A DNA stretch of 64,000 nt, from the NCBI RefSeq assembly GCF_000378305.1, contig NZ_KB899538.1, positions 806,001 to 870,000 on the forward strand, given 5' to 3'. The notes beneath the pieces were generated by a model. That model made no database searches. It saw nothing but the letters and a program-made list of their open reading frames with translations, and was not told where the DNA came from. The position numbers and the translations under genes were made by a program. The stretch is from Thioalkalivibrio sp. ALJ12 (GTDB lineage: Bacteria; Pseudomonadota; Gammaproteobacteria; Ectothiorhodospirales; Ectothiorhodospiraceae). Below are positions 28,510 through 30,377 of the stretch, in pieces. How positions within the stretch are numbered: the first letter of the stretch is position 1; every line of letters starts with the position of its first letter.

Positions 28510-29159
28510 TGTTGTCTGGATCCCCAGAGTCCCGTGCGCCCTCGTGGGCGGGAGTGACCCGTTGGGTGTCAGGTGTCGTCGTGGCGCTGGTGCTGATCGG
28601 TTGTACGGCCCCAATGCCTCGTACCGAAGACCCCGCTGCACGACAGGCCTTCGACGAGCGCGCCGAGGTCGTGAAGGCCTTTGATGAGTGGCGCCTGGCG
28701 GCCCGTCTGGGGCTCTCCACCGAGACGGAATACTGGTCCGCGCAGCTGAATTGGCGCGTGCAGCAGGAGCGCCATGTCCTCGACTTGTCTGGTCCCATGG
28801 GGCGTGGGGGTGGCCGTCTGACGCTGGCCCCGGATCAACCCGCGGTGCTGATCACGCGAGCCGGCGAGCAGTATCAGGCCGAGGACCCGGATGCTCTGGT
28901 CGCCTACCTGACGAACGAGTCGATACCGGTGTCCGGCATGCGCTACTGGGTGCGGGGTCTGCTCGCGCCGGGCGCCGAGTACGATCTCGAGGTGGACGAG
29001 GACGGCTTGCCCCGGCGCATCGAGCAGTCCGGCTGGGTGATCGAATTCGGCGAGTTCGATGAGGTTGACGGCATGGCGCTCCCGGTGCGCATGGACCTCG
29101 AGCGCGAGGGCGTGGAGCTGCGTGTGCGCATCGCTAACTGGCACATGGCGACGCGATGA
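28509..29159 (+). CDS. lolB: outer-membrane lipoprotein receptor LolB
   Basis: 216 residues from ATG 28509. The signal/lipobox VVALVLIGC places Cys32 at the mature N-terminus. The sequence WRLAARLGLSTETEYWSAQLNWR and LTNESIPVSGMRYWVRGL fits the LolA/LolB half-barrel. LolB accepts lipoproteins from LolA and inserts them in the outer membrane. It overlaps ispE by ATGA, in the conserved TPR-lolB-ispE order. Confidence 0.9.
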   Translation: MLSGSPESRAPSWAGVTRWVSGVVVALVLIGCTAPMPRTEDPAARQAFDERAEVVKAFDEWRLAARLGLSTETEYWSAQLNWRVQQERHVLDLSGPMGRGGGRLTLAPDQPAVLITRAGEQYQAEDPDALVAYLTNESIPVSGMRYWVRGLLAPGAEYDLEVDEDGLPRRIEQSGWVIEFGEFDEVDGMALPVRMDLEREGVELRVRIANWHMATR

Positions 29160-30046
29160 GCGGCGATTTCGATGTGGCCTTCCCCGCGCCGGCCAAGATC
29201 AACCGATTTCTGCATATCACGGGGCGGCGCGCCGATGGTTACCATGAGCTGCAGAGCGTGTTTCAGTTCGTCGGGCTGGCGGATTCGCTGCGCTTCGAAC
29301 CGCTGGAGCGGGGGCGATTCGAGATGTCGGCCGGGGCGCTCGATGGAGGTCACAACCTGTGCCTGCGGGCCGCGCGGGCGCTGGCGGAGGCCAGCGGTTC
29401 ATCCTTTGGGGTGCGGGTGCATCTCGACAAGCGCATCCCGATTGGAGGTGGCCTGGGTGGGGGCAGTTCCGACGCCGCAACCACGCTGGTCGTACTGAAC
29501 CGACTATTCGATCTCGGGCTGTTGGAGGATGACCTGGCCGCGATTGGATTGGGCCTGGGGGCTGATGTGCCGGTTTTTGTGCGCGGCCGGGCGGCCTGGG
29601 CCGAAGGCGTCGGGGATCGCCTGGTTCCTCTGGAGCCGGATCTGGCCTGGTTGCTGCTGGTGGACCCCGGCGTTTCGGTGGCGACAGGGCCCATGTTTGG
29701 CTCAGCGGAATTGACACGCGACTGTCCCGCCGAGACAATTTCGCCCGAAATTGATGCCGCGCGCTTTCGTAATGTGTTCGAGCCGCTGGTTCGCCGGCAG
29801 TATCCACTCGTTGCCGAGGCACTGGACTGGATGGGCGGGCAAACGGAGCGCGCGCGGCTGAGCGGCACTGGGGGCTGTATCTTCGGGATGTTCCCGAACG
29901 AGCAGGCTGCCCGCCAGGCGCAGGCCGCACAGCCCCGTCCCTGGCGGAGCTGGGTGACGCCGCTGACGAACGTGTCGCCCCTGCGGCAGTGGCTCCCGGG
30001 CAGCGCCGCCGCCGAGGGTGCCGAACAACAAGTAATTGGGCCGTAG
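29156..30046 (+). CDS. ispE: 4-diphosphocytidyl-2-C-methyl-D-erythritol kinase
   Basis: 296 residues. GHMP-kinase with FPAPAKINRFLHITGRRADGYHEL at the substrate side, the ATP loop PIGGGLGGGSSDAATTL and the C-terminal LSGTGGCIFGMF. It phosphorylates CDP-ME in the non-mevalonate isoprenoid route. The stop codon TAG (30044-30046) lies inside the first, interrupted tRNA-Gln copy, so the last three codons are shared with tRNA sequence and the C-terminal residues may have been reshaped by the tRNA duplication. Confidence 0.95.
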   Translation: MSGDFDVAFPAPAKINRFLHITGRRADGYHELQSVFQFVGLADSLRFEPLERGRFEMSAGALDGGHNLCLRAARALAEASGSSFGVRVHLDKRIPIGGGLGGGSSDAATTLVVLNRLFDLGLLEDDLAAIGLGLGADVPVFVRGRAAWAEGVGDRLVPLEPDLAWLLLVDPGVSVATGPMFGSAELTRDCPAETISPEIDAARFRNVFEPLVRRQYPLVAEALDWMGGQTERARLSGTGGCIFGMFPNEQAARQAQAAQPRPWRSWVTPLTNVSPLRQWLPGSAAAEGAEQQVIGP

Positions 30047-30174
30047 CCAAGCGGTAAGGCAACGGGTTTTGATCCCGTCATGCGCAGGTTCGACCCGAGC
30101 GGCGCAGCCGCGAGAGCACGCCACCGCAGGTGGCGCCCGAAGGGTGGCGCGCAGCGCCATCATCCTGCCGGCCC
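30037..30174 (+). pseudogene. tRNA-Gln copy split in the T-loop by a 68-bp insert
   Basis: Bases 30037-30093 are identical to the first 57 bases of the intact tRNA-Gln at 30252 (acceptor, D, anticodon UUG, variable and 5' T arm, ending TTCGA). Bases 30162-30174 (ATCCTGCCGGCCC) are identical to the continuation of the tRNA. Between them, 30094-30161 is foreign sequence rich in hairpins, placed between T-loop positions 58 and 59. After 30174 the last acceptor base, discriminator and CCA are missing. A duplicated tRNA broken by insertion is the simplest reading. An excisable or processed insert cannot be excluded from sequence. Confidence 0.75.
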
Positions 30175-30218
30175 GGATCGGCGGCAGCCGATCCGCCATC
30201 GGTTCCGGAAGCGGAACC
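30094..30218. repeat. array of perfect mini-hairpins with GNA triloops
   Basis: There are six successive perfect hairpins. GCGGC-GCA-GCCGC is at 30099-30111. CGCCACC-GCA-GGTGGCG is at 30119-30135. CCC-GAA-GGG is at 30136-30144. TGGCGC-GCA-GCGCCA is at 30145-30159. A 9-bp stem with GGCA loop is at 30174-30195, and GGTTCCG-GAAG-CGGAACC is at 30201-30218. The first four form the insert inside the tRNA copy; the other two follow its 3' fragment. GNA triloops are known to make very stable DNA mini-hairpins. Similar GCA/GAA hairpins occur in the grxD-rnt gap. Confidence 0.85.
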
Positions 30219-30251
30219 TGGACAGGGTTGGGGCAGGCAACAACGAGTAAT

Positions 30252-30326
30252 TGGGCCGTAGCCAAGCGGTAAGGCAACGGGTTTTGATCCCGTCATGCGC
30301 AGGTTCGAATCCTGCCGGCCCAGCCA
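30252..30326 (+). tRNA. tRNA-Gln (anticodon TTG)
   Basis: A 75-base cloverleaf. The acceptor is TGGGCCG pairing with CGGCCCA, then discriminator G and an encoded CCA. The anticodon arm is ACGGG-TTTTGAT-CCCGT with TTG, and the T arm is GCAGG-TTCGAAT-CCTGC. It lies between ispE and prs as in Pseudomonas. It is the intact member of a tandem pair; about 12 bases of upstream sequence (AACAAC-AGTAAT type) are shared with the broken copy at 30037. Confidence 0.96.
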
Positions 30327-30377
30327 TACAACGCGGGTGGTGATGCTGGATATCGCCACCGCGCCACACACCACCGG

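Follow-up and report, generated by a model that had tools for sequence, protein, structure and literature searches.

The elements called tRNA-linked repeats (TLR, or RtT in Rfam) have been on record since 1978 and still lack an established function, an early claim for one having been withdrawn (PMC8144298). They are described as repeating 18-19 bp from the 3′ end of the adjoining gene, and those of E. coli are reported to be transcribed and then released in the course of tRNA processing (PMC8144298). RtT RNA of Thioalkalivibrio has also been reported as transcribed and cold-induced, a result that stands for the genus and not for the particular locus considered here (PMC8092127). In the E. coli tyrTV/rttR layout, the cassette is placed between GGTTCGA and AATCC.

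Here we analyse a tRNA-Gln gene of the soda-lake bacterium Thioalkalivibrio sp. ALJ12, located in a stretch of 64,000 nucleotides that we call the window. What is new at this locus is a cassette that lies upstream of a working tRNA and keeps the entire front half of a tRNA gene, the RtT family itself being already known. Taken as a whole, positions 30037-30194 are very probably an upstream variant of the TLR elements, which would have originated by duplication and recombination and would give a TLR-like RNA by-product.

The split and intact tRNA-Gln genes

The features of the locus are the following:

29156-30046: ispE, on one side of the split tRNA-Gln locus
30024-30036, + strand: first copy of the 5′ flank, duplicated along with the tRNA (repeat search)
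30037-30093, + strand: 5′ half of the split tRNA-Gln(TTG), positions 1-58, matching the intact copy at 57/57 bases
30094-30161, + strand: RtT/TLR hairpin cassette in the T-loop (RF00391 match, RtT insert of a relative, fold, covariation in related cassettes)
30099-30111, + strand: HP1 of the cassette
30119-30135, + strand: HP2 of the cassette
30136-30144, + strand: CCCGAAGGG of the cassette
30143-30161, + strand: HP3 of the cassette
30162-30174, + strand: 3′ part of tRNA-Gln, positions 59-71 (3′ strand of the T-stem and 6/7 acceptor positions, without discriminator and CCA)
30175-30194, + strand: 8-bp hairpin GGATCGGC-GGCA-GCCGATCC in place of the CCA end, its stem constant in 8 genomes
30239-30251, + strand: second copy of the 5′ flank (repeat search)
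30252-30326, + strand: intact tRNA-Gln(TTG) with CCA (ARAGORN, Rfam tRNA)
prs, the gene for ribose-phosphate pyrophosphokinase: on the other side of the locus, the tRNA-Gln copies lying between ispE and prs

The tRNA-Gln(TTG) copy at 30037-30174 carries 68 nt within its T-loop, which separate position 58 from position 59, and the 13-mer ATCCTGCCGGCCC that continues it is found, identical, at 30162-30174 and 30309-30321. On this split and its 13-base continuation, the sequence and the repeat search agree with the earlier note, which had also proposed that both a duplication and an insertion had taken place; the presence of 70-nt direct repeats (30024-30093 and 30239-30308, 99% identity, spacing 215), together with the two copies of the 13-mer, bears this out. 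In 8 Thioalkalivibrio genomes the insert lies at this position, with identical junctions and 13-mer, which puts the layout far beyond chance, and the same junction occurs in 7 public genomes, every one of them Thioalkalivibrio.

The intact gene was called at 30252-30326/30323 with 68.1 bits (ARAGORN and Rfam tRNA); besides it and the split copy, no tRNA-Gln(TTG) turned up in the genome, and the intact copy presumably does all the translation. ARAGORN and Rfam tRNA also gave a weak call at 30036-30109 (35.1 bits), which is false, as the cassette begins with bases that resemble the 3′ strand of the acceptor. Split copies of this kind pass for genuine tRNA genes in annotation tools, so that tRNA numbers are inflated in the genomes that carry them. 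The stop codon of ispE (30044-30046) falls within the split tRNA, at its positions 8-10. A promoter consensus scan of the locus found none, and the sole terminator-like site found by scan is 3′ of the intact tRNA.

The RtT/TLR cassette family

The window copy matches the RtT model RF00391 from 30046 to 30179, over its full 130 positions, with 38.6 bits (E 1e-5), a score that falls short of the gathering cut-off of 45 bits. Homology of the cassette to RtT gets independent support from the genome G022, because its RtT, downstream of the same tRNA, carries a cassette 97% identical to that of the window and passes the gathering score with 45.4 bits; RtT copies located downstream at this locus in G001, G005, G021 and G022 score between 45.4 and 62.3 bits. 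Our own covariance model R1 gives the window copy 60.9 bits, which is not independent evidence since R1 was built with the window sequence included. Between GGTTCGA and A/ATCC, the window element shows the hairpins with CCCGNAGGG typical of the cassette. However, its 3′ tail is of 13 bp (positions 59-71) followed by a hairpin and not of the full 18-19 bp, which the ordinary TLRs of the same genome do carry as a full tRNA 3′ tail, and it is placed upstream, not downstream, of the tRNA at 30252-30326. In view of its score, tail and position, we class it as a variant that shares the cassette, and do not count it among the ordinary TLRs. Judged by sequence, the insert is an RtT/TLR cassette (RF00391, E. 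coli rttR), and neither an intron nor a random palindrome. The earlier note was right in calling it structured and palindromic, as the predicted fold into HP1-HP3 indicates, but in place of its palindromic mobile repeat we find, rather than an unknown element at a chance site, a cassette whose family members split the T-arm at this very point.

A search for the insert across its own genome, also suggested by the earlier note, returned by BLAST only weak partial matches, most of them away from tRNAs. It was through covariance models that the family came into view in this genome, with 10 clear cassettes, all adjoining tRNA-Ser (TGA, CGA, GGA, GCT), tRNA-Gln (TTG, CTG) or tRNA-Arg(ACG) genes, and two weak further ones at tRNA-Arg(CCG). 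At this last gene (L213 1202-1620, corresponding to G000 C1:634105-634328), there follow two diverged TLR-like units, each with an Arg 3′ tail, which are below detection by the Rfam model. Within the class, matches at E <= 1e-4 were obtained in 44/273 good genomes.

About 60 loci share a common plan, in which an antisense T-arm is followed by a sense GGTTCGA, HP1, HP2, CCCGNAGGG, HP3, A/ATCC and then what remains of the tRNA 3′ end, CCA included. The 3′ tail fits best the isotype of the local tRNA in 56/59 loci from many families, all 59 loci comprising 29 Gln, 20 Ser, 7 Tyr and 3 Arg. One rule thus serves for the tRNAs of all four isotypes: at T-loop 58/59 sits a conserved hairpin cassette, whose tail follows the adjoining tRNA. 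The fold of the cassette is supported by covariation. In the gapless subset of 17 Ser-type cassettes used for this purpose, 96.7% of the cells are paired and 9 pairs have changed on both sides; two-sided changes amount to 29 cells, versus 8.8 +/- 2.2 in shuffles and no more than 4 in slid structures. RNAalifold found 8 pairs on a mixed alignment of 32 cassettes, few because MAFFT misaligns hairpins of unequal length.

The upstream variant and its conservation

The window type departs from the common plan in that a complete tRNA 5′ half replaces the antisense arm, and that the 3′ part ends at position 71 and continues into a hairpin. Upstream split tRNA-Gln copies occur in 8 genomes (G000, G001, G002, G004, with two units in tandem, G005, G021, G022 and G023), and also in other gammaproteobacterial families (G032 of f9, G191 of f41, G070 of f47 and G082 of f59). 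G032 has two of them (L163 and L124) at two contig ends, on the ispE and prs sides, with more hairpin strings nearby. The same arrangement is found at tRNA-Ser(TGA) in 5 genomes (G000, G002, G004, G009 and G011), where the 5′ half agrees with the genome's own intact copy at 72/72 positions in four cases and at 68/72 in G011 (ungapped count), and where the shortened 3′ part also runs into a GC hairpin. Downstream RtT copies at the tRNA-Gln locus are present in G001, G005, G021, G022, G023 and G002. Those of G001, G005 and G021 are absent from the window genome (window 30320-30345 compared with L097 690-870). The ispE-prs spacer of relatives, which the earlier note had proposed to inspect, does contain empty sites in G011, G007, G017 and G018, each with a single tRNA and without a cassette.

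The split 5′ half is 91% identical between the two carrier clades, the cassette 76%, the 13-nt 3′ part 100% and the hairpin 84%, whereas the spacer reaches 32%, and the flanks and the ispE end, the latter only roughly aligned, about 50%. The hairpin stem is identical in 8 genomes while its loops differ, and in G009 it shows a compensatory change, GAATCGGC/GCCGATTC, from G-C to A-T. Gene conversion with the intact tRNA can account for the tRNA parts, but it falls short for the hairpin, given this constant stem, the variable loop and the compensatory change. The G009 copy itself is a remnant (L103, reverse strand, 395-470) in which HP3, the 3′ part and the hairpin survive, while the 5′ half and the greater part of the cassette are gone. 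Since G009 has only this remnant and G011 is without the tRNA-Gln split unit, the unit is dispensable and not essential. Most likely, the copy is dead as a tRNA and lives on as a structured non-coding segment of the TLR type. The pseudogene favoured by the earlier note stands in part: CCA is missing and the spare copy is not a working tRNA, but simple decay does not fit a unit that is conserved, dispensable as it is, while the spacer diverges.

Origin and comparison with known systems

In the origin that we propose, the T-loop cassette, whose usual place is a partial tRNA 3′ end following a tRNA gene, would have come to lie in a tandem-duplicated tRNA-Gln with its whole 5′ half. Going by the layouts, an ancestral array of tRNA-Gln and downstream TLR would have undergone duplication, after which the TLR cassette would have been fused to the 5′ half of the tRNA by recombination at the short GGTTCGA repeat. 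Later recombination may have kept the split unit similar to its neighbours, its 5′ half agreeing with the intact copy in its own genome and its cassette recurring in a downstream TLR of relatives. The tandem unit measures about 215 bp, with three in a row in G004. In the downstream TLR of G261 (L235 540-660), the 5′ piece starts at the anticodon arm of the tRNA and not at an antisense T-arm, an intermediate layout of the kind that recombination at GGTTCGA would give. The window junction fits a precise collapse between two tRNA 3′-end repeats CCAGCCATACAACG, with loss of the downstream RtT. Cassettes also appear to move between the positions before and after the tRNA: the window cassette, which is upstream, shares 97% identity with the downstream cassettes of both G022 and G023, and upstream and downstream cassettes within one genome are 74-83% identical. 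By analogy with E. coli TLR RNAs, the split unit is likely to be co-transcribed with ispE and/or the tRNA, remaining unspliced and uncharged, and its RNA would be either a structured precursor segment or a stable by-product of tRNA processing.

It is possible, if on the unlikely side, that the cassette is a non-autonomous mobile element targeting T-loops, which would leave one tRNA intact because the inserted half-copy restores the gene; the spread of TLRs would then be selfish and not functional. The insertion point is constant across isotypes and families, presence is patchy with empty sites in relatives, and RtT-like cassettes also occur off tRNAs in dispersed GTCATTGCGAG...CTCGCAATGACG repeats, in 17 genomes of the genus and with up to 33 copies per genome. 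However, no transposase or integrase is linked to the cassette, every copy has the tail of its own neighbour, as expected from local duplication, and the covariation of the stems points to selection on structure. The dispersed repeats are MITE-like, mostly with those ends, and their RtT-like cassette (GTTGAACGGCCGNNGGCCGGCCCGAAGGGCGAGCG.AGCGAGTAATC) has no tRNA within 1.5 kb. In G000 (L216-L223) they include C1:684772-684811, 685635-685674 and 686761-686800, C2:11190-11229 and C3:416188-416227, and in relatives they correspond to loci L247-L258. The repeat is absent from the other genera searched, its 17 carriers being of the genus Thioalkalivibrio, and a literature search on it gave unrelated matches only. 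A broader proposal, which we likewise regard as possible but rather unlikely, would make TLR cassettes a family of tiny T-loop-targeting elements that duplicate the 3′ side of the tRNA (ordinary type) or its 5′ side (window type), always leaving one working tRNA and having common ancestry with the dispersed MITE-like repeat, so that spread rather than cellular function would explain TLRs.

A regulatory RNA, either a CCA-less tRNA mimic titrating GlnRS or processing enzymes, or an attenuator preceding tRNA-Gln, seems improbable to us. The 5′ half remains tRNA-like, the 3′ part and hairpin are conserved where the spacer is not, and the layout appears again at tRNA-Ser(TGA), all of which would suit such a role; yet G009, G011 and G007 dispense with the unit, gene conversion also explains the identity of the 5′ half, and neither a T-run after the hairpin nor a promoter in the consensus scan was found. 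More improbable still is an ordinary decaying pseudogene split by a chance palindrome: the lack of CCA and the loss or reduction of the split copy in relatives agree with decay, but not so a layout common to 8 genomes and several families, a unit better conserved between clades than its spacer, and a cassette homologous to RtT.

Archaeal T-loop tRNA introns interrupt the gene within the T-loop, as occurs in the window copy, and removal of the 68 nt in silico restores a normal tRNA-Gln cloverleaf, if without discriminator and CCA; nevertheless, a spliced tRNA of this kind is hardly credible, because the genome has no match to the splicing endonuclease EndA (PF01974; archaeal controls were positive), the split copy has no CCA or discriminator, an intact copy is present, and the same cassette occurs in tRNA fragments unable ever to form a tRNA. 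The archaeal-type intron mentioned in the earlier note is thus unsupported, and its remark that 68 nt are too short for a group I or II intron agrees with the lack of any Rfam match to these introns up to E 1. Splicing of the split copy to a working tRNA is accordingly very unlikely.

Returning to the upstream TLR variant, REP/BIME and MITE-like repeats resemble it as short palindromes outside genes, and one dispersed repeat of the genus has a similar cassette, but TLR cassettes are tied to T-arms and have neighbour-specific tRNA ends. The B. cereus pseudo-tRNA "tRNA-Other" is likewise a tRNA-like RNA gene outside translation (PMC3399842), but it is not known to have a T-loop cassette or a TLR layout. 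The rule common to the isotypes, together with an upstream form in which the 5′ half of the tRNA is retained, makes the origin and function of TLRs testable, including a possible kinship with the dispersed repeat. The closest system is the TLR/RtT family (RF00391, E. coli tyrTV-rttR), which shares with the window copy the T-loop split GGTTCGA-cassette-A/ATCC, the order of hairpins with CCCGAAGGG and a 3′ part copied from the adjoining tRNA. In contrast to ordinary TLRs, which lie downstream of the tRNA, begin with an antisense T-arm and finish in an acceptor end with CCA, the window copy precedes the intact tRNA, has a full tRNA 5′ half and ends in a hairpin.
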